Positions 10,055-41,536 of a DNA stretch of 64,000 nt are shown piece by piece. The notes beneath the pieces are model-generated. The model was not told where the DNA came from, did not search any database, and was given only the letters and a program-made list of their open reading frames with translations. The number at the start of each line of letters is the position of its first letter. Within the stretch, counting starts at the first letter, position 1. The DNA is from Syncephalis plumigaleata (lineage: Eukaryota; Zoopagomycota; Zoopagomycetes; Zoopagales; Piptocephalidaceae): NCBI GenBank assembly GCA_025201365.1, contig JAIXMF010000004.1, forward strand, positions 372,001-436,000, in the 5' to 3' direction. The position numbers were made by a program, and so were the translations under genes.

Positions 10055-10609
10055 ATTGGAAAGTATAAAAATGTAATACAAGGTTTCTTTAATTGATTAC
10101 CAATGTTAACCTTTAACTTTTACTTTTATTAATAAATAATCTTGCACATTTGTTAACACCATTACCTCTCTCCCTCTTTCTCTTCCTCTTTCACATTTGA
10201 CTACGTCCTCCGTAATCACTTGTATATGTATCGAATAGTGTTTTCACCAATCCCACTGACCGCTGTTGTCATCACTCGCTTCCATGCTGTTGTGTCGTTT
10301 AAGCATTAAAGTATAGAAACGTAGACGTTGTCTTTGTTCCTAGCATTACAGCAACACTAGACATAGTTATGACATGTTGTAATCCAAGTGTAATGACAAT
10401 ATGTAGGAAGCATAGTTCTAAGGATACTGACATATGTGATGAAATAGCACTCGTGTAATCAATATTCAATGACCTCACTCGATATAAAATGCTCATTCAT
10501 GGCACACGATAATAATAAGCATAGCTGGAGTAGAAGAAAGAATCGAACGATGAATAGAGTAGAAGAATGCCCTATAGCATTACATATTTATTCAATAAAT
10601 GAACCAGCC
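10055..10609. other. Spacer between LENG1-like gene and microexon gene
   Basis: Promoter side of the LENG1-like gene and 3' side of the microexon gene. Small ORFs on both strands here have no recognisable features. The polyadenylation end of the microexon gene probably lies in or near this stretch, but I cannot place it. Confidence 0.4.
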
Positions 10610-10788
10610 ATTATTGATATTTATGTAATAGGACCATGGATGAATAGACGGAAGGGACTTGTAGATATACTTGTTGTTGTTGTACCAAGGAATAATGACT
10701 TGAATACATGGACACAAAAGGGTCTTGCACCAATACATTCTTGGCTTGAATACCTATAATATCTACTTGATGATGTCCTTGTCTTGCT
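10610..10788 (-). other. Terminal exon of the microexon gene (3' UTR, or coding in an alternative frame)
   Basis: It follows an ordinary 52-nt intron (10789-10840) with acceptor GGTTACAG. In the favoured frame the stop already lies upstream in the TTC-TAA-GCA exon, so this exon is 3' UTR. If the 5-nt microexon and exon 1 are read from the ATG without any adjustment, another frame stays open through all the microexons and through this exon to a TAA near 10612-10614. That would give a roughly 120-residue product with a Gln-rich tail. Which reading is real needs transcript or peptide data. Confidence 0.4.
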
Positions 10789-10843
10789 CTGTAACCATAA
10801 TGGATTAGTATGAGTATGATTATTGTGGATTATTACTTACTGC

Positions 10844-13033
10844 TTAGAACTATCATTCAATTAATGTAAATTGTATTGTAATTAGTATATCGTAGATGAC
10901 GATCGGAATGGTAACTTACAGGCTGGTATACAGGAACATACATAGATTGTATGCAATACTGGGATTAGTACCTCATTCATTACAGCTAGAATGATTACTT
11001 ACCCACTATCATACAGGAACGTATGTGGACCATGTGCCGATACTATAGTTAGTATACCATAGATTGTAGCCAGAGTGATGACTTACCCACTAGCATACAC
11101 AGACATATGTGGATTATATGACATATTGTGATTAGTACTCATTCGTAGCAATCGTAATGGAAACTTACTTTCTATCATACAGGAACATATATAGATTATG
11201 TGTCATAGTATGATTAGTACGTCATTCATTACAGCCATAATGGTTACCTACAGGCTGGTATACACAGACATATGCGAATTATATGACATATTGGTATTAA
11301 TAATCATATATAGCAATCGTAATGGAAACATACTTTCTATTATACAGGAACATACGTGGATCGCGTGCCATATTAGAATTAGTACGTCATTCATTACAGC
11401 CAGAATGTTAACTTGCCCACTAACATACAAGAGCATACATGGATCGTGTGTCATATCCTAGTTAGTTCCTCGTCCATTATAATTGTAATGATAACTTACA
11501 TCCTATCATACGTAAGCATATGTGAACCACGTGCCATATTGTAATTAGTACTCATTCATAGCAGTCAGAATGATAACTTACCTTCTATCATACGGGAAAT
11601 CATGTGCCGCATTGTAATTAGTACCACGTTTATTGCAGTCAGAATGATAACTTACGTCCTATCATACAGAAAATATATGGATCGTGTACCATATCGTAAT
11701 TAATACACCCATATGTTATCATTGGGAATGATCACTTACACACTGTTATCCATAAATATGTGGAAATTGTGTATCATATTATCATTAGTACGTCTATTCA
11801 TTACGGCAGAATGATAGCTTACAGCCTGTTATACGGAAACATACGTGGATTATGTGCCGATACTGTGGTTAGTACAACATTTATTGCAATGAGAATGATA
11901 ACTTACTCCCTATCATACAGGAACGTATGTGGACCATGTGCCGATACTATAGTTAGTATACCATAGATTGTAGCCAGAGTGATGACTTACTTTCTATATA
12001 CAGAAAATCGTGTGTCACATTGTAATCAGTATACTCATTCATTGCAGTCAGAATGATTACTTACGCCCTATTATAAAGGAACATATGTGGATCATATTAT
12101 TATTGGTATCTTATTCATTGCAGTCAGGATGATAACTTACGCCCTATTATAAAAAATCATGTGCCGCGTTATGATTAGTACATTCATTCATTACGGTCAA
12201 TATGTTAACTTACGTCCTATCATACAGAACATAGTGAATTATATGATTAGTATACTCATTCCTTACGGTCAGGATGATAACTTACGACCTATCATAACGA
12301 AATTGTGTGCCGCATTACAATTAGTACATTCATTCATTGCAGTCAAAATGATAACTTACCCACTATCATACAGAAGTTTACGTGGATAACGAGCCACATT
12401 GGTATTAGTCCGTCATTCATTACAATCTGAGTGGTAACTTACGGCCTATCATACGCAAGTATACGTGGATCATGTATCATAGAGTAGTTAATACATCTAT
12501 CCATTACAATCTGAGCGGTAACTTACATTCTATCATACAGGAACGTATGTAAACCATGTGTCATACTAGAATTAGTACGTCATTTATTGCCATCAAAATG
12601 GTAACTTACGCACTGTGGTAAACAAGTATATGGATTGTGTAACAGATGGTAATTAATATACCTTACATTACGATCATAATGATAACTTACACCCCCTTGA
12701 AATGGTAGCCACATATGGTTTTGATTTGTATTACATTAGCATAGAACTTGTTACGGACAATAGAATAGCTTACAAACTATTATTAACAAATCAATATGTA
12801 GAATAAACATTACAGTGTGATTAGCATGTCGAATCAACCATTAATATACATGAACTTACGACCTATCGGTAATCATCGGTGGACAATGAAACAATAGACT
12901 ACGATTAGTACATCAATTGATAGGGTACGGCCAGACATACTACGACGATCCAATGCGGGACTAGCTTCAACGGTGGCCACACTGGCGACAGCGACAACGG
13001 CGACGGCAATAGCGATATGGTAGAGAACTTCAT
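10844..13033 (-). CDS. Secreted mini-protein gene built of one-codon (3-nt) exons
   Basis: Exon 1 (12941-13033) encodes a leader. Twenty-five microexons and TTC-TAA follow. Microexons, 5' to 3': 12860-12862 GTC; 12774-12776 TTT; 12691-12695 GGGGT; 12610-12612 TGC; 12529-12531 AAT; 12443-12445 GCC; 12360-12362 TGG; 12286-12288 GTC; 12214-12216 GAC; 12141-12143 GGC; 12065-12067 GGC; 11991-11993 AAA; 11907-11909 GGA; 11823-11825 GCT; 11740-11742 TGT; 11656-11658 GAC; 11582-11584 AAG; 11500-11502 GAT; 11417-11419 TGG; 11334-11336 AAA; 11252-11254 CCT; 11169-11171 AAA; 11087-11089 TGG; 11003-11005 TGG; 10920-10922 CCT; 10841-10849 TTC-TAA-GCA. From the fourth on, each is one codon: CNAWVDGGKG, then ACDKDWKPKWWPF and stop. 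Frame caveat: the best signal-peptide frame of exon 1 joins this frame through the 5-nt exon but is 2 nt out from the ATG. Using GGG with a GTGTAA donor instead gives an uninterrupted 57-codon ORF. Function unknown; secretion is inferred. Confidence 0.8.
11006..11086 (-). repeat. 81-nt intron identical to 11910-11990
   Basis: Every base of this intron equals the intron at 11910-11990, 904 bp away. The flanking codons differ: TGG and TGG here, AAA and GGA there. The identical tract stops at the intron boundaries. This shows recent copying or gene conversion of a whole intron without its exons. Confidence 0.9.
11910..11990 (-). repeat. 81-nt intron identical to 11006-11086
   Basis: Second member of the identical intron pair. 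It lies between the GGA (11907-11909) and AAA (11991-11993) microexons. Confidence 0.9.
12941..13033 (-). other. Exon 1 of the microexon gene: signal-peptide-like leader
   Basis: The ATG at 13033 lies in context CAACATG and starts MKFSTI. From 13013 down, the other frame reads AIAVAVVAVASVATVEA and then SPALDRR, a textbook hydrophobic core with an Ala-x-Ala-like cleavage site (VEA/S). The ATG and this core are 2 nt out of phase. In the ATG frame the leader is MKFSTISLLPSPLSLSPVW…, which is hydrophobic but Pro-rich. Either a 2-base error or mutation separates start and core, or the unusual leader is genuine. The donor is GTATGT at 12940. Confidence 0.6.
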
Positions 13034-13176
13034 GTTGATATTGGCCTAGTGGAATGGATAGCTCAGCTGACTAGAACGAGAGTAGAAAGTAGAGTAGAGT
13101 AGAAAAGAGTAGAGTAGAGTAGAAGAGTGAATATGAGGATGGCAAGCTGAGTGTATCGAAAAGTGCTTGATTTATA
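13034..13176 (-). promoter_or_regulatory. Promoter and pyrimidine-rich 5' leader of the microexon gene
   Basis: A TATAAA box lies at 13171-13176 (minus strand, context GCTATAAATC), 138 nt before the ATG. A CTACTCTACTCT-type pyrimidine tract (about 13075-13125) lies between box and start. A TATA box with a CT-rich leader is typical of strongly or conditionally expressed fungal genes. No other element was identified. Confidence 0.5.
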
Positions 13177-16411: not shown

Positions 16412-19400
16412 ATGGAGACTACACAGTTACAGACCATGTATGCTGGCTTGCATGATATAAATGATCCTATTCAGCTATTAGACTGTCTATCAGGTGATAT
16501 GCAATGATATCGAGTTGTATTCGAGCCATTGTTGACTTGTTTACCTATAGAGATAGCGCAATTAGAATTGACCAGTCGTTTATCCTCCAAGTTAGCCGAG
16601 ATAGACCGGGAATACTGGGTGAGTGTGTAAGGTATACTCGCATAGCTAATTGAATGCTAAGTCACTAGTATAGAGCCAGATAGAGTCGGATTACGCGGGA
16701 GTAGATCGATGGGATCAACCGGAACTATTAGCAAAGATATCGACAACATTCACGCATCTAGTAGATTTGATCTTTAAGGAGATGAATCAGTTAAAGGAGC
16801 AAACCTATACACTCGTCGAGTAAGTCAATATCATTACACATATACATGTATCTATTACAGAATAGTAACAATAGTAATATACTAGTTCATCATTGCGAGA
16901 ACAGTATCTACGTCGACTACGTGTTATAGTCAAGTCATTACTGCCAAGTTGTTTATGGCCAATGGCCTATTGTTATACTCGTCATTTGTTGCAAGAATTC
17001 GAAGATATACAACACGCTATGGATCATATACCATTGCCGTCAATCGATGATACTCACAAGTTGATATCTGTACTGGATAATGTGGTCAAGCATATTCTTT
17101 CCAGTGACCATCGTGCATTTTCATCTAGTAAATTCAATATTATTAAAGGATTGCGTGAAATGCGAGAGCTACGTCGAATATTTGCCGAGATTGACGAACA
17201 ATGGCTGCAACAAATGGTAATTAAAGTATCGATGCAAGCCATGGAGTATTTGGTATACGCGACGGCACATGGCTCATTTGAAGTATCGGCACATTCACAA
17301 TGTCAATACTGGCTAGATCACGTACTACTTCCATTGATTCATTGCGTATTCTACTATGGTATAGTCGAGTTAACATGTAATAAGAGCAAATACTAACATG
17401 AATAATCATGTCAATAATAGAGACGATAATGCTACACCCGTAGTAATATGGTATCGAACATTATCGGATCATTTAGCACGTACATTAGCAAGTCTACGGT
17501 AAGTCTAGTATAGTATAATAATAGTTTGTATGAATTAATAGTATTTAGTATCTCGGAATTATTCAATATTATTGTTGAACATCCAGCTTGTAAAGGTGCA
17601 TTGGAAGACTTGAAGGTAAGCAGTTACTCGATTGATTACGGCATTATCATATTAACAATTACTTATGATGATGAATACATTTAGATTTGTATAAAGACAT
17701 CACATCAACGGGATCAACTAGTTGCTACACTTGCTACATCGTGAGTAATAACATTAAGTACACAGTATCCATGCACTCACAAAGTAATAGGATTGATAAG
17801 CGTCTCTTACATCCAGGAGCAGATACATCAGATATACTTATGCATTACATTTCAATGATTCGTTGTTTACGATTTATTGATCCACCTGGCACTCTATTGG
17901 AACGAGTAGCCGAGCCAGTTCGTAATTATCTACGGTAAGTGTATACATAACAGTCAAGTAATATCATTGAACTAAATGAGCATAGTGGACGCGATGATAC
18001 AATTCGATGTATTGCGGAAGATTTAATGAACGAGTCACGATCCGATCTTATTGAAGAGTTGACCGCCGGTGATTCGGGACAAGGCTACACGTCAGATTCG
18101 GAAGATGAGGATGGCGACGATCCCAACTGGGAACCCATTCCTATAGATGCTGGACCACGTAAGTAGCAAGTGAATAGTAATAATGCTAGTGATTAATATC
18201 AATCTTAGGGCTGGATACACTTCATCGTCGTAATGCCGATGCAATCAGTATGCTGATTAGTATATACAAGACCGTGATGTATTCGTTAAAGCATTCCAAG
18301 CAATGTTTGCCGAACGATTATTGGCAATTGATGATTATGACACGGAGAAAGAGGTAAGTATATTGATTACTATCATTCTAATGGGATATTCAGCTTATTT
18401 CATTATTAGATTCGTAATTTAGAAATGTTAAAGCTACGATTCGGCGAGACGAATCTACAATCTTGTGAAGTGATGATCAAAGATTTTGCTGATAGTAAAC
18501 GGTTTGAACAGTATTTACATCAGGATTATGCATCAGATATCGATGTAAGTCATTTGAGATATCATTACTGCTGTTATTAATATATGTATATACATATATA
18601 TCATATAAGGGACTGATGTTATACGACCAATTATTCTGTCAAGACTATCATGGCCTGAATTCAAATCGGAAGAGTTTGCACTACCTGATATGATTGATTC
18701 GTAAGTAGTTGTATACTAATCAATGTGATGATGATTAATAGCATGTTATCTAGTCTCTACACGACATCAAGTCATATATTCAGTGAATATAAACAACAGC
18801 GTAAACTTGTATTAATACCACAAGTGGGTACAGTCATTTAGAATTGGAATTTGATGAGCGAACAGTAGAGTTCCATGTATCACCACCTCATGCTACAGTC
18901 ATTATGGCATTTGATCAACAAGGTAACAAGTCAATGTAGTGACAACGAGTAATAGCATTCATTAACCAGTGAATTCACTAGATAAATGGGAGATAAATGA
19001 ACTGGCGAATAAGCTGAAAATGCCATTGCCTCTACTGAAACGTCGTCTTTACTTTTGGTGTGGTCATGGTATATTGAAGGAAGTAGATCAAGGACACTTT
19101 GTAGTACAATCATCGGCAGGAGAACAAACAGACACACAAGGTATATATATATATATAGAGTATAACATCAATGATATAACCAATTTATATGTAGGAGTAG
19201 TAATGGCAGAGGAAGCACACGATGATACTTCTATCAATCAAGAAGAGGAATCAACAGGAGAGATGCTACTCTACTGGAATGTCATTAAGAATATGCTTAG
19301 TAGTATGGGACCACAGCCATTAGAGCGTATTCATACAACACTCTCCATGTTTCTACAAGGACCGGTGAAGTTCACCAAGAGTCATGCTGAACTACGCGAT

Positions 19401-19469
19401 ATGCTCGATGCAATGGTAACTGAAGAGAAGCTAATCTGGGCTGATGGACAATATCGATTAAAGCGATAG
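16412..19469 (+). CDS. APC2: Anaphase-promoting complex subunit 2 (cullin-like APC2)
   Basis: Scaffold of the APC/C ubiquitin ligase that binds the RING subunit Apc11. Many short exons. The cullin-homology region has LRLDTLHRRNADAISMLISIYK, then RDVFVKAFQAMFAERLLA, EKEIRNLEMLKLRFGETNL and CEVMIKDFADSKR. Then comes PPHATVIMAFD, and the C-terminal winged helix (MLLYWNVIKNMLSSMGPQP … LDAMVTEEKLIWADGQYRLKR) typical of APC2. Oddities: an in-frame TGA lies near 16510 in the first exon, and the frame slips by one base near 18270 between SIYK and RDVF. Both are in otherwise well-conserved sequence, so consensus errors or an unrecognised tiny intron are more likely than loss of an essential gene. Confidence 0.88.
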
Positions 19470-19695: not shown

Positions 19696-21349
19696 ATGTC
19701 GTCTTCATCTACTCGACACGATCCACAGACTGATAGTGACAGTGAGCATGTTAGTGATGGCAGCAACACTAGTCAATCTATGGAGTATAACAAGAACAAA
19801 ACAGCCAATGCTTATATCGTATCAGCTGGTGAGGAACGAGAGCGTGAATTAGACGAATTCCGTCGACAATGGGCAGCAGAAGTAGTGGCACGTCAACAGA
19901 AAGAACATAAACATGAAGGAGAAGAACAACAACGGGATAAAGCTAAACAAATACCGCTAGATTCAACGCATGTTAGCATAGACGATACAGCAAGTGCACT
20001 ACAGCACCTTACACTTAATGAACAGTCGTCCGCCATTAATACTACCAATGGTAACAATAATACTAGTCCAACCATGGTAACGCGAACATCAATAGATAAC
20101 AATCATCGTACGGCATCATCAACATTATTGAAATCACCTCCATTATCTGCCTTGGAACATTAAAAAAAGCCGTTCGATTTGAGACACAAAATCAACTTGG
20201 TGATGGTAAGTATATATATAGATATATAATATATTTACTAATTGATTGTATTAGCATTGAAGCATTATCAACAAGCATTCCGTATTGATCCTAATGTAGA
20301 TCGTAACTTTCATAAATTGTATCCTAATGGTGTAGTTACTACTGAATTAGAGGATAAAGAAGGCAATGATAATCAATTAATGAAGGGTGAAGATGCATTT
20401 GTACGTACTATACAATGGAATGAAGACTATCAGCCACATCATCGTCGACATTTGCATAAACGAGATAAGCGTAGTGCAAAGGAAACATATCGTAAAATAC
20501 GAGAGAGTAATCCATTCTATCAGTTACTCGATGATATACGTAGTCAAACAACAGCAATTGCAATTAATGATGACAGTAGTATAGATACAGCACCAATGCC
20601 ATTACTATTTCGTTTACCGCGTGAAATACTGCTACGTATTGCACAATGTTTAGGATTGATTGAGATACGATCATTGATGCGATTTAGTCAAACATCTCGT
20701 TTATCACTTGTACTCGTTTATGACCCATCAGTGTGGCGATTACTATGTGAGCGTGATTACACCGCAAGCTATACAGAGGATAGATTGTTAACGAGTGTTA
20801 CGGCTACTCGAGTGAAATTACAACAAGAGTTGAACATGGACTATTACGGCGATTGGCATCTCATGTTTATCGATCGACCTCGTATTCGTATTGATGGCGT
20901 CTACATATCTACTTGTTTCTACATTCGGTAAGAAGTGATTAGTAACATTTATAGTGATGCTGTTATTGATACATATTACTATTACTATTGATATTAGACA
21001 AGGTTTGGCAGAGAACACATTCTATCACCCGGTACATTTGGTAACGTATTATCGTATATTCGTTTCTTCCGAGATGGTCGTTGTCTACTCTATATGACAT
21101 CGGATGTGCCAGTCAAGTGGTACGTGGATTGCAACTTGACTCTAAGCAAGCAGGTCTAATGCGTGGTCGATGGTCGATTGATGAGGCGGAAGTACGTATT
21201 GAAGCGGTGGACGCACAACGACCCAATCTCATATTCTACATGGAGTTGAATCTACGTAGTACGTCACGCGGTCGACATAACAAACTGGCCTGGCAAAAGT
21301 ATTACAGTACTGACGCGTTACGAGATTACGATCCCAACGAATATCATTG
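19696..21349 (+). CDS. FBXO9: F-box protein of the FBXO9/Hrt3 family
   Basis: Substrate adaptor of SCF ubiquitin ligases. The start is the ATG at 19696 (MSSSSTRHDPQ). A Ser/Glu-rich N-terminus contains LDEFRRQWAAEVVARQQK. A TPR-like pair of helices reads AVRFETQNQLGDALKHYQQAFRIDPNVDR. The F-box is LPREILLRIAQCLGLIEIRSLMRFSQTS (about 20615-20700). The C-terminal FBXO9 domain has RPRIRIDGVYISTCFYIRQG, then YYRIFRFFRDGRCLLYMTSD and MRGRWSIDEAEVRI. The frame is off by one base at the A7 run at 20162-20168, a likely homopolymer undercall. Confidence 0.88.
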
Positions 21350-26385: not shown

Positions 26386-27687
26386 TTATTGTGTTGTACC
26401 ACGACCCGCTCCTTGTGTTGTTGTTGTTGTTGTAGTTGGATTAATACCAGTAGGATTACCACGACCAGCGGGCATACCACGACCACGTCCCATAGCGGCA
26501 GCAATGGCAGCAGCAGCAGCAGCGGGATTGACAGCACCGCCACCACGACCACGACCAGCTGATGCTAGAAATTGCTGTATTAATGGTAAGAAGAGCGGAT
26601 TGCCTTGTAATTGCATTCCATTCTGTTGCATTAATTGGGCCAAGATCTGTTGTTGTATCTGTTGCTGTTGTGATTGCTGTTGCTGTTGTTGTTGTTGTTG
26701 TTGTGGCTGCTGCTGCTGTTGTTGTTGAGCTTGTTGCAGCTGAGCTTGTTGCAGTTGTTGTAACTGTTGTAATTGCTGCTGTTGAACCTGCTGCTGCTGC
26801 TGTTGTTGTTGTTGTTGTTGATGCTGCTGGTGTTGAGCTTGTTGTTGCTGTTGCTGTTGTTGCTGAGCTTGCTGCTGCTGCTGCTGCTGTTGAGCCTGTT
26901 GTTGCAATGCACGTAACATAGCAACTTGTCTTGTTTGTTGCATGAATCGAAGTGCCTGTCCTTGTTGCGCCAGATTGAGCTGTGGATTAGCTTGAGCTCC
27001 TACTGGTATAGCTGCTGGATTCAATGGCATAACATTGGGTGAACCTGGCATGGCATTGGCACGTAGATTATTCAGTATATTATTAGCAGTAATTGAACCT
27101 AGTTAAATAGAGGATTAGCTTAATAAATAACTATAACACTATTGTAGTTACCTTGTATATTCGGTTGTATTTGTGGTTGCTGTTGCGGTGTTTGTGGCTG
27201 TGGTATTTGCGGTGTTTGTTGTTGTTGAGATGCTGATTGTAATTGTTGCTGTTGCTGTTGTTGTTGTTGTTGCTGCTGCTGTTGTTGAGCCTGAGCTTGG
27301 GCTTGAGCACGCTATAATCATCATTATGTTAGTTTAGTTAAATATCGATATTCTTTCAATAGCTTACCATAAGCTGTGTAATCTGATTGATAGTAAGTTG
27401 TGAATTGCCCATGCCGTTCAGCATTCCTTGTATCGGTGTCACCGCTGGTCTTAATGGTGTTTGCTGCGCCATTTGTTGCATCAACTGTGGTTGTGATTGT
27501 ACAGGCAACTGAGATTGTTGCTGCGGTGATTGTAAATGCGCTTGCACTAGTTGTGGCTGCACTGGTAACTGATGCTGCTGTTGAGGTGTCTGCGGTTGTA
27601 GCTGCGGTGTTTGTGGTTGTGGTGTTTGCTGCGGTTGCGGTGTTTGCGGTTGAGGTGTTTGTGATGCTGATTGTTGTTGTTGCTGCT

Positions 27688-27718
<31 letters not shown>

Positions 27719-30680
27719 TGCCATTAGTGGTAGTACTAGAGATGCTTGTTGAGGTGACATCATCGGTGGTCTCTGAGGTGCTGGCTGTACCGGTGCTGGT
27801 GATGAGGCTACCATTGGAGATAGTCCTGGATTAGAGGTAGCAGTAGCAGCGGCAGCAGTAGCAGCAGCAGTAGCAGGTGCATTTTGGAATTGTCGTTGAA
27901 GTAAAGCATTAAGCATGAGCGGATTAATACCAACAGGTTGCTGCCCTGGTCTCGTTGCAGCTTGTACCGGTTGTTGAAGAGCCGCTAATAGTGATTGGCA
28001 AACACTGGATTAGCCGCCATTAGAGCGAGTGCCGGATTATTCTGTATGGCCTGCCCTCTACCAGCTTGAGCTTGAGCTTGTTGCTGTGCAAATAACATAC
28101 GCATAAATGCAGGTGGTAAATTTTGTAATTGCGGTATTTGTTGCTGTTGCTGTTGCTGTTGTGTTGTTGCTGCTGCTGCTGTTGCATTGATAGCTGTTGT
28201 TGTTGTTGTTGTTGTTGTTGGTCATATTCATTGGTTGTGGGCGGTTGAGTTACTTGTGTACGTGGTGATGATACTGATAAATTGGCAGCTACTGCAGCAT
28301 TCTCCGCAGCACTACTAACATGCAACGGTGTAGATGTGATAGGTTGACCTGTAAAGTTTGCAGCCAAGGTTTGCGCTGTTGCTGCTGTTGGTGCTGCTGC
28401 CGTTGATGTTGATGCCGTATTGGTTGTGGCTGTGGTGTACCTAGTGTTTGTGTATACGTGCATATACATGTATGCATTAGTGATGAGTTAGATTAGAACG
28501 AGATCGCCATCACTATAATATACTTACCCTTATCTTCATTAGTAGCACCCGCATTGAGTGTATGAGTTTGTTCAGCGTCACTTGATGCAGATGCAGGATT
28601 CGACACCTTCTTGACATCTGTGTTGATGGCTGGCACATTCTGCATAATCATTGTTGATGTTGTCGAGCAATGGCTGCTGCCACCGCTGCTCGTTGTTGTG
28701 GTAGCTCATAGCAAGTGCCTTAGCATTGATTGCATTAGCAGTATTATTACTACCACTAGCATTGACATTGTTAAGTTGATGAACTATGCCATTCGCGAGA
28801 CTCGTCGCTTGTCCACTACCAAGTTCGATGTTGTGCTCGAATACAAGCTTATGATCGACTTGCATGAATCGTTGAATACCAAACAGGTATAATCTAGTAG
28901 TCAATTTATCACCAATGGCAAAGCTATACACATTCATTAGCATAAGCAGTTCAACTAATTAATACGATATAAATACCATTATCGTAGTTTCCTTACTTTA
29001 ATGTCTGTCCATGAACTGCCGTATCCTTTATCGATCCCCAGCGTAGTAATCCCTCGTAAGTATGCGAGGAAGTAAGATAAATATTCAGTAATACATGTTT
29101 CTTTGCTATATTCCATAATGATTAGTGACACATTCAAACTATAATGAAATAATGAGGGATACTCACGCTCTACGGAACCTTGTTCAAATCGAAGTGTACT
29201 AACAAGTTTACGTCCATCATTCTGTGGAATAGCAATATCTGCGATCCTTTACGTGTATTTGTTGTTGATGCTATAATGTATATGTATGATAGTATATGTA
29301 TATTATTACACAATGATATATGTCGATTATTACCTGCATCAAGTGTAGGCGTAGGTTCTTGGTCTGCTTTAGCACGTTTACGCCTCCAATCTTGCATGAA
29401 ATTAATTTTACCAAATCTATTTCAACAATGTAGCTATAAGTAAATACAGTTAAATATTGCATCTCGTCATTGAATACATACGTCGGCTGGAATGGACGAT
29501 TATGTTTCTAGTAAATGAATGATAACAGCAATTAGCATGATTACTCCATGTTCTTTCCCTTTTACTTCTATTATTAAACATGCTTACCTCATCCATTAAT
29601 AGCATAAGTTTCTCGTGTTCCGCTTGAGCCACGGCTTCCTCCTCCATTTCCGATGAATTCCATTTACGCTTAGCTAATGGTCGGTGTCGACTCTGCGCGT
29701 AGCATATGGCATTGGAAACGCGCATCACATCAACATTTGGTTCGAGACAAAGTGGCGGTGCTGTGGCTAACTGTAATCGTGTGTGTGTTTTGTTTTGTTT
29801 CATTGCTCGACATTAATATCACCTTACGAATCGTGTATATGCATCACAAACATTCTAGCTTACCAAGATACGCGCTTCAAGCTCCAATGCTGTATCCTGC
29901 GACCATTGCATGCCCATTTGCTCATTAAGCATACAGATGTCCGACCAAAGACATTCTTCCGTTGGCTGTAATGAGATACGATAAGTGGAGCGTGGATGCC
30001 GTGTCACTACAGTTTTATCATTGCTATTGCTATTGCTATTGCTATTGCTTTTCCCTTCTTCGTCAGGTGTAGCGACGGTTGATTCGTCAGCATCTAGTGA
30101 CGTATCACTGTCATTATCACTTCTCGTACGTCGCTTCTTATAGCTAATCGATCGATGGTCGCGTATCTCTACAATGATGCAGCCTAATAGTTTACGTAGT
30201 AGCGATACAAAATAAAGATACCATTACTTTAGTGTTGTTCACGCGAGAATACATATATATATATATATATACGCGCGCTTGTTTACCTTCATAGAATGGA
30301 CAATTTGCTTCTTCGAATACATCAATGAGATCAGGCGGTAATCGTCGGTCTTTAATATATTGTAGAAAGTTCTATACATACGCGTTAGTGTATATTTACG
30401 TTGTTGATCTTTAAAAAACGTAATTGCTTTTATCTAGTTACCTTCATCACGCCAGTAAGTAGAAATACGCCATCCTATATGGACGTAAACATTTATAAAA
30501 GGCGTATATTAGTTAGACAAATTCATAAACGTGTATACGTAATCAACTATTGTAATTTCGTAGAATACTACCACTAGCGTATATACTTACTTGATGTTCA
30601 AACTTAAAATGCGTTGGATATATATGCATCACCAGAGACGGTGGCTCATCTCGATAGCGCTCCACAATGGGATCGCGCAT
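26386..30680 (-). CDS. SPT20: SAGA complex subunit Spt20
   Basis: Structural subunit of the SAGA coactivator. The N-terminus from the ATG at 30680 reads MRDPIVERYRDEPPSLVMHIYPTHFKFEHQDGVFLL…GVMKNFLQYIKDRRLPPDLIDVFEEANCPFYEGCIIVEI, the Spt20 domain. SLQPTEECLWSDICMLNE and LELEARIL follow, then PLCLEPNVDVMRVSNAICY. The long C-terminal part is Gln-rich with uninterrupted CAG/CAA runs (about 26640-26920, 27180-27300, 27660-27720, 28140-28220), ending …GRGMPAGRGNPTG…GAGRGTTQ. The poly-Q tail is a usual feature of fungal Spt20. About 12 exons. Exon joins in the low-complexity part are uncertain. Confidence 0.85.
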
Positions 30681-39592: not shown

Positions 39593-41536
39593 ATGGCTGA
39601 GGTCGATAACGGTTGGCGATTCGCCCAGTGTTTCGGCGATAAAGGAGACGTCGATGAAATCACAGAAGGTAAGGAAAGGCGCGCATCTTACGCGAAAGAT
39701 GACGTCGTGATTACAGTGAACGAGTGAAATCTGACACTGTTATTGTTGACGTATCCTTTTGTGTTTGTCATTTTTACGCGAGCGGTTTTTGAAATAGCAC
39801 TATTTGTTACGTAGCATATAGACGATACACTATTTTGATGTGATATTCAGTTGACATTTATACTGTTGCTGTTGCTGTTACTGATATTGATACTGATACG
39901 ATTGTTGCATTCTTCTTATTTAGCGGATATTATTTCTACAGTTGAATTTGATCATACCGGTGATTATCTGGCCACAGGCGATAAAGGCGGCCGTGTTGTA
40001 CTATTCGAACGCAACGATGGCGTAAGTATTAGAGCACATTTATTACTAGTATGCATGTATGCTAATAAATAGCAAATATACATGCGTACCTATGCCTACA
40101 TTCATACATTTATGTATGCGGATTATAGAAGAAAGGTTGCGAGTACAAATTCTACACGGAATTTCAATCGCATGAGCCTGAATTTGACTATTTAAAGAGT
40201 TTGGAAATTGAGGAGAAAATCAACAAAATTAAATGGTGCCGTCGTCAAAACTCTGCACATTTCCTGCTTTCTACCAATGGTACGTATATGCTAGTTGCTG
40301 ATGAAATCATCGACTAATCCAATCGGTCAACTAGATAAAACGATAAAGCTATGGAAAGTGTATGAGAAATCGCTCAAGATGGTGGCGCAAAATAATCTTG
40401 GCACGGATGGTCAGGATGCATCGTCGATGCCAACATCTATGGCGAGACTTCATCTGCCACGCACCGTCCTACACGATACCATTGTAGCAGCAGCCCCGCG
40501 TCGTATTTATGCTAATGCTCATGCCTATCATATCAACTCTATATCTGTTAATTCCGACGGGGAAACGTATATTTCTGCCGACGATTTGCGTATTAATTTA
40601 TGGAATCTAAATATTAGTGACCAAAGCTTCAATATTGTTGATATCAAGCCTGTAAATATGGAAGAGCTAACCGAAGTAATTACCGCCGCCGAGTTCCATC
40701 CCTTACAATGCAATCTGTTCATGTACAGCAGTAGTAAGGGTACCATCAAACTGGGTGACATGCGTGCAGCTGCACTATGCGATCAACACTCCAAATGTAA
40801 GTGTGATTTCTTCTTCGTTTCTTTCCCATTCACGATGAATGACACCATGATATGCATTCCTGATCGCTTAATTAACTCGTAATTATATAGTGTTCGAAGA
40901 GGAGGAAGACCCCTCGAGCAAATCCTTCTTCTCCGAGATCATATCCTCCATATCCGATGTACGATTCAGCTCTGACGGACGGTATATTCTATCACGCGAC
41001 TATTTAACGCTAAAAATCTGGGATATTAACATGGAGAATAAGCCTGTCAAGACGATTAGCATCCATGAACATCTCCGTAATAAGTTGTGTGATCTCTACG
41101 AGAATGATTGTATTTTCGACAAGTTCGAGTGTATTTTCAGCGGTAATGGTCGATCAGTAATGACCGGCTCCTACGATAATTACTTCCACATTTACGACAC
41201 GGTTCAGGAACTGCCCGACGTTACGCTACAAGCCGATAAGAGCGCCTTCAAAGCAAAACGAGTGGGTAGCACGATGAATCGAGGCGGTAGAAACGGCGGT
41301 CCACGTATGGGTAATCGTCCCGATGCGATTAATGTAGATGCCATTGATTTCAGCAAGAAGATCATGCACGCATCGTGGCATCCAAGGGAGGACACGATTG
41401 CCGTGGCAGCTACTAATAATCTTTTCATTTTTACGTAAGTTACATGAATATATATACGTGATATTGATGGACAATAAGTAGACTAACACAATGATTATTT
41501 ATGTTTTTTATTCATGCTCTATTAATCAGCGCGTAA
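39593..41536 (+). CDS. CDC55: Protein phosphatase 2A regulatory B subunit (Cdc55/PPP2R2)
   Basis: WD40 targeting subunit of PP2A. The start [25 protein letters not shown] matches the family. [20 protein letters not shown] and [20 protein letters not shown] follow; both are B55 signatures. Then come [59 protein letters not shown] and [16 protein letters not shown]-type repeats. [10 protein letters not shown] precedes the last exon, which is tiny: C-GCG-TAA at 41530-41536 completes …NNLFIFTA. Complete, seven exons. Confidence 0.95.

Follow-up and report, generated by a model that had tools for sequence, protein, structure and literature searches.

Predicted runs of one-codon exons in a candidate family of secreted-peptide genes in the fungus Syncephalis plumigaleata

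A stretch of 64,000 nucleotides from Syncephalis plumigaleata (contig JAIXMF010000004.1, positions 372,001 to 436,000; hereafter the window) carries on its minus strand a locus in which introns of about 80 nt alternate with exons of 3 nt. S. plumigaleata is a zoopagomycete fungus that parasitises other fungi. With a probability of roughly 90%, we read this locus as a member of a large S. plumigaleata family of genes for secreted peptides, in which the variable mature peptide would be encoded one codon per exon. At the level of sequence, the predicted anatomy recurs in many loci, the reading frame closes in most of the complete ones, the triplets are poor in stops, and intronless copies hold predicted microexons already joined. 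The first-pass annotation of the window described the array and overlooked two points, membership in a large family and a break in the frame of exon 1 in the window copy.

From 12940 to 10850, the minus strand of the window holds 26 introns of 69 to 83 nt each with 25 microexons between them; 24 of the 25 microexons are 3 nt long and one (GGGGT) is 5 nt long, so that the first-pass count of these pieces was correct on that strand. The donors are GTAAGT or close variants, including one GCAAGT and one GTAGGT, and a 27th intron, of 52 nt, lies in the 3' untranslated region (3' UTR) (Table 1). It had also been claimed that the joined codons run open to TTC TAA; read from the end of exon 1, the sequence SLWGCNAWVDGGKGACDKDWKPKWWPF is indeed open to the stop. 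The ATG frame of exon 1 misses the microexon frame, with a one-base difference from the paralogs.

The frame was followed in other loci with a parser that scored donor, branch, acceptor, and lengths only, used no coding information, and started at the end of exon 1. Parsing drew on 49 stretches (L026 to L074) fetched after the first searches, with L001 to L025, from earlier searches, left out. A match to the signal exon of the family was present in 33 of the 49, and parsing left out 14 of these 33: 10 intronless loci (L041, L042, L043, L044, L046, L048, L049, L050, L060, and L068) and 4 with arrays (L031, L053, L057, and L067). The 23 parsed loci comprise 438 exons, of which 372 are of 3 nt, 26 of 9 nt, 18 of 5 nt, 6 of 2 nt, and 16 of other lengths, and 19 of the 23 reach the terminal TAA exon. 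In 13 of these 19 complete loci, no stop interrupts the frame between the end of exon 1 and TAA (L026, L029, L030, L032, L035, L036, L051, L052, L054, L055, L059, L066, and the window locus); 11 are open all the way from ATG, the window locus and L030 failing in exon 1. Two more (L033 and L056) are open from ATG under an alternative exon or splice choice, and no stop occurs in the four loci that run past the edge of the fetched stretch (L045, L061, L064, and L065). Open loci follow a common frame rule: exon 1 ends in phase 1, some phase-1 exons follow, an exon of 5 or 2 nt comes next, and single codons in phase 0 make up the rest. An exon of 5 or 2 nt is present in 22 of the 23 parsed loci, and a longer stretch of L064 contains a run of 38 one-codon exons.

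These results refine two further claims of the first-pass annotation. A secreted peptide is supported at the level of the family, by the signal-peptide exon, the in-frame one-codon exons, the conserved stop, and the intronless copies with the predicted joins; it does not stand for the window copy as stated, the signal-peptide exon of which is out of frame with the array. The proposal that every residue sits in its own exon would apply to the mature part. It fails for the signal peptide, which lies in a normal exon, and for the first microexons, which are in phase 1 until the 5-nt or 2-nt exon sets phase 0.

The triplets themselves are consistent with coding. Only 1 of 334 phase-0 triplets is a stop (in L063), against a mean of 16.1 and a minimum of 5 stops when letters were permuted (2000 runs) and a mean of 6.8 when position was preserved, where 6 of 2000 permutations gave one stop or fewer; the shifted readings contain 39 stops in 622 triplets. 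T and C are favoured at the third position of phase-0 triplets. At least two Cys residues occur in 6 of the 23 parsed products, and a C...CC pattern is found in L054, L061, L064, L065, and L067. A Pfam search of five spliced products returned sub-threshold matches only and no known domain.

Joined microexons are found in intronless members. After its first exon, L041 continues with CTGTTGTCGAACGCCGTGCTC, an exact match to the joined series CTG, TTG, TCGAAC, GCC, GTG, and CTC, which are exons of L036 and L033, and then with CAAATCCTG and ATCCT, sequences that serve as exons in L056 and L032. In L049 the first series recurs one base shorter, and in L068 the sequence GTCTCCAACTTGGTGCT is the equivalent of a series of exons in L029, three of its 17 nt being substituted. 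The joins so covered lie in the early portion of the gene and involve exons of 2, 3, 5, 6, and 9 nt. The 3' UTR intron, too, is missing at its exact site from three intronless members (Table 1). In L041, L049, and L068, family homology begins within about 2 bases of one point, approximately 40 nt downstream of the position of the family TATA box, and the box is absent upstream of these three, as opposed to the intronless L050 and L060, where it is present. All three thus combine exact intron loss with homology from the transcription start, that start being placed from the shared point and the TATA box. L049 is in addition flanked on both sides by the 11-bp repeat AGTGTACGCGT (0 of 2000 shuffles). 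Predicted microexon series joined in intronless copies, homology starting near one point, and the repeat around L049 are as expected of retrocopies of spliced mRNA, and on balance L041, L049, and L068 look like retroposed spliced mRNAs. Joined codons also appear in two GenBank models: P0005 (BDF22DRAFT_685769, partial) contains NPINGSMDYVYWKPIVPGYWGPIN, corresponding to 24 consecutive one-codon exons of L064, and P0003 contains QEWNEF of L054. Because the joined codons come with odd splice choices, both models may be gene-finder output and are taken as support only.

Beyond the parsed loci, the spacing recurs across the genome. The pattern GTAAGT-N50..80-AG-NNN-GTAAGT has 1062 + 914 (1976) matches in 32.6 Mb against 86 + 42 (128) for the same pattern read backwards, which serves as a rough control only; the matches are not independent, because the units are repeats. 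A 4-nt spacer gave 9 + 23 matches against 127 + 97 backwards, and a 2-nt spacer 66 + 55 against 28 + 26, most of the 2-nt hits, among the matches listed, being the terminal exon TAAGCR. The genome-wide excess is peculiar to 3-nt spacing and exceeds chance, and its matches, among those listed, are clustered. At C58:10437 and 12255 and at C223:612325, 614059, and 614141, the spacer AGAC stands between TATAG and GTAAGT, which would make 4-nt exons if TAG is the acceptor. Two further kinds of array were seen: L028 (C1:1409500-1419400, minus strand) is a different and longer microexon region, left outside the parsed family, in which chains with dozens of 3-nt exons rich in GAG, GAA, AAA, and GCG codons extend over about 6 kb, and L037 (C112:1943000-1952000) and L038 (C323:35000-44900) hold a 3-nt-exon array of another kind, the near-identity of which on both contigs suggests duplicate or haplotype contigs.

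When the signal peptide of one member was used as a query, 150 of 169 candidate places were scored (weakest E, 4.1e-4), a figure that includes intronless members and contigs that look like duplicates and so is not a count of distinct array genes. The members compared resemble one another in their upstream sequence, signal exon, first introns, terminal exon, and 3' UTR. The intronless member L043 is identical to the GenBank protein BDF22DRAFT_441022; in L043 and L047 (C340:439100 and C46:432900), the family signal peptide is joined to an unsplit glutamine/asparagine-rich mature protein, coiled-coil-like by eye, and the signal exon is therefore common to quite different mature parts. Two family searches for relatives in other species gave 2 and 12 proteins, of which the named ones were all from S. 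plumigaleata and one was nameless, a weak negative because annotation may miss such genes.

The introns resemble one another far more than the codons do. In an alignment of 313 introns, the donor columns averaged 1.76 bits and the intron body 1.03 bits per column, against 0.07, 0.04, and 0.24 bits at the three exon positions; each codon is therefore a variable island between alike introns. The introns follow the consensus of the major spliceosome (GTAAGT in 273, CTAAY in 263, and TAG or CAG in 309 of the 313), partly by construction, with the branch A at a median of 43 nt from the acceptor. A search of the introns for conserved RNA structure gave none (alifold energy of 0 for 305 distinct introns; mean z of +0.37 for 80 single introns). 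In the 32 pairs with both flanks at least 90% alike, differences affect 21.9% of codon sites and 4.4% of flank sites, and all 8 of the single-base codon differences are nonsynonymous. When pairs were chosen by one flank, the other flank and the codon stood at roughly similar fractions of their own baselines. This lets mosaic exchange between introns explain much of the excess, and hypermutation of the codons is not claimed.

Several observations weigh against the proposed secreted-peptide family. None of the parses tried gave an open frame for four of the 19 complete loci (L027, L058, L062, and L063), L062 meeting TGA two codons ahead of TAA, and the window locus, L027, and L030 have an out-of-frame exon 1. 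Reverse-complement triplets likewise show 1 stop, so that the strand cannot be told from stop depletion alone. A codon-usage score trained on 1081 codons from five open reading frames (ORFs) of the window was higher in frame (-0.004) than in shifted readings (-0.172 and -0.842), the reverse complement (-0.365), random intron triplets (-0.257), or permuted letters (-0.398), and is no better than in position-preserving permutations (mean, -0.017; maximum, 0.136). Since these reach the same level, the score supports coding-like position composition only, and codon usage was rejected as proof of coding. The splice-motif frequencies owe something to the parser, which favours those words. As to the retrocopies, the repeats flanking L041 (423 of 2000 shuffles) and L068 (1242 of 2000) are not significant, no poly(A) run was found at the ends of L041, L049, and L068, and all three were compared with exons of paralogs; likely parental arrays lie on C337, C68, and C318 for L041 and on C60 and C364 for L068. 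In P0005, some microexons are passed over and one donor is unusual.

Whether the window copy itself is a pseudogene is evenly balanced. Because its exon 1 is out of frame, the copy may be broken, or exon 1 may hold a sequence error. That the family is spliced as described and the window copy is a pseudogene agrees with the one-base offset of exon 1 from the paralogs, with an ATG frame that misses the array, and with the out-of-frame first exons of L027 and L030. On the other side, nothing else in the window array or its stop is damaged, all 27 introns are well formed, and one-base differences could be assembly errors.

An origin of the introns as mobile, introner-like elements that entered once-intronless genes between codons, instead of tandem duplications of intron and codon together, is unlikely. 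It would account for introns that are alike while the codons between them differ and for the existence of intronless members, at least two of them with the family TATA box upstream (L050 and L060). Exact 3-nt spacing over dozens of sites and the whole-unit length differences between close paralogs fit tandem gain and loss of units better, and three intronless copies lack the family TATA box, one of them (L049) with a flanking repeat. Very improbable is a non-coding array, removed as one intron between exon 1 and the terminal or UTR exon, with units that are a satellite-like repeat containing splice-like words: the units are indeed homologous repeats (1.03 bits per column in the intron body), and a repeat born from one intron would have its signals in every copy, yet the near-random spacers (0.04 to 0.24 bits per position) are almost fixed at 3 nt and nearly stop-free, frames close on the common TAA in 13 of 19 complete loci, and intronless copies hold joined microexon series.

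Table 1. Predicted features of the one-codon-exon locus in the window (positions are those of the window; codons are located by their first bases)
Feature	Position	Strand	Remark
TATA box (TATAAAT), family promoter	13170..13176	-	common to intron-containing paralogs L029, L032, L035, and L036 in alignment
Exon 1, ATG and signal-peptide exon	12941..13033	-	frame shifted one base relative to paralogs (L029: MKFSAVIAIAVAVVALTSLVAVEASPVLERR)
Intron 1	12863..12940	-	GTATGT donor, a type found in paralogs too
Phase-1 3-nt exons GTC (12862-12860) and TTT (12776-12774), with intron 2 between	12774..12862	-	
5-nt exon GGGGT	12691..12695	-	moves array from phase 1 to phase 0
22 phase-0 one-codon exons	10920..12612	-	separated by introns 5-25
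Phase-0 codons 1-8	TGC 12612, AAT 12529, GCC 12445, TGG 12362, GTC 12288, GAC 12216, GGC 12143, GGC 12067	-	first bases
Phase-0 codons 9-16	AAA 11993, GGA 11909, GCT 11825, TGT 11742, GAC 11658, AAG 11584, GAT 11502, TGG 11419	-	first bases
Phase-0 codons 17-22	AAA 11336, CCT 11254, AAA 11171, TGG 11089, TGG 11005, CCT 10922	-	first bases
Terminal coding exon TTC-TAA-GCA	10841..10849	-	stop common to paralogs
3' UTR intron	10789..10840	-	missing at exact site in intronless L041, L046, and L050
3' UTR exon	10587..10788	-	AATAAA-like signal at 10592-10587

Elsewhere in the window, ORFs at 18969-19466, 20242-20931, and 40295-41435 (all plus strand) have Pfam matches to APC subunit 2, F-box, and WD40, and a protein search with the APC2-like ORF found no relatives. 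Stretches of TGT/TTG-type triplet repeats lie at 26386-28418, partly over minus-strand ORFs.

If the family works as its sequence suggests, exon 1 would encode a signal peptide with a dibasic (RR) site at its end, the mature peptide would come from tandem units of about 83 nt (an intron of about 80 nt plus a 3-nt exon), and the last small exon would supply the final codon and TAA. Splicing would proceed by intron definition and probably stepwise, one intron at a time, since 3 nt of exon leave hardly any room for the factors of two adjacent introns together. A hydrophobic N terminus and RR are seen in family sequence; the product may be a Kex2-type prepropeptide, secreted and perhaps cut at RR, with a role that likely lies in contacts with the fungal host or with microbes. 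The unit of intron plus codon would also be the unit of evolution: close copies, such as the paralog pairs L051/L052 and L058/L059, differ by whole units. Skipping any 3-nt exon would keep the frame, and isoforms are therefore possible. More tentatively, and at somewhat less than even odds, the array may be a system of codon-level diversification in which unequal exchange between homologous introns inserts, deletes, or swaps single residues, in frame because each residue travels with its own intron of about 80 nt, in which variable inclusion of exons gives many peptide variants from one locus, and in which perhaps a hundred genes would serve the mycoparasite against its fungal hosts.

In recursive splicing, long stretches vanish stepwise as a donor is rebuilt after each removal, at sites that leave zero nucleotides; each step in the Syncephalis array would instead leave one codon. 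To our knowledge, the exons of aphid bicycle genes are not single codons. Bicycle genes share with the Syncephalis family effector-like secreted proteins, many small internal exons, and very fast coding divergence, and include a megacycle gene with more than 100 microexons (PMC9168663); their internal exons are nearly all in phase 2, whereas the main Syncephalis array is in phase 0 after its 5-nt or 2-nt exon. A working definition of micro-exon genes (MEGs) sets a minimum of 7 exons, of which half or more are micro-exons (less than 70 nt and divisible by 3), in runs of at least four (PMC7653826). The predicted window gene, with 28 exons, 24 of them of 3 nt, and a longest run of 22 such exons, falls within it in number, share, and run. 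In schistosomes, 35 MEGs have exons of mostly 15 bp (3 to 81 bp in the abstract, 6 to 81 bp in the text) and introns of 0.1 to 5 kbp (PMC10526429). Like the Syncephalis genes, MEGs are described as coding for secreted proteins from many tiny exons, mostly multiples of three, so that skipping keeps the frame (PMC10526429, PMC7653826); the Syncephalis array differs in its single codons in runs of up to 38 (L064), its mutually homologous introns of about 80 nt, and its occurrence in a fungus. That the spliceosome handles exons of 1 to 3 nt is known from the 1-nt exons of plant APC11 and VPS55 and the 3-bp exon of Drosophila homothorax (PMC8831610, PMC7392893), which, as these sources present them, are isolated and not dozens in a row. 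The Syncephalis array is thus an extreme of the micro-exon gene kind, set apart from the MEG and bicycle families by exon size, phase, intron size, and lineage. Among the matches listed in the literature searched, there was no report of arrays of consecutive one-codon exons, and such a report may be in print.

If the proposed reading is true, the family would lower the known size limit of exons that follow one another in long runs and, with each 3-nt exon shared by two adjacent introns, would need splicing to be modelled as stepwise. Two old questions, the smallest exon that can be defined and the possibility of exon modules of one residue, would become directly testable in one organism. Standard annotation and RNA sequencing (RNA-seq) mapping would then probably have hidden a secreted peptide repertoire of this fungus.
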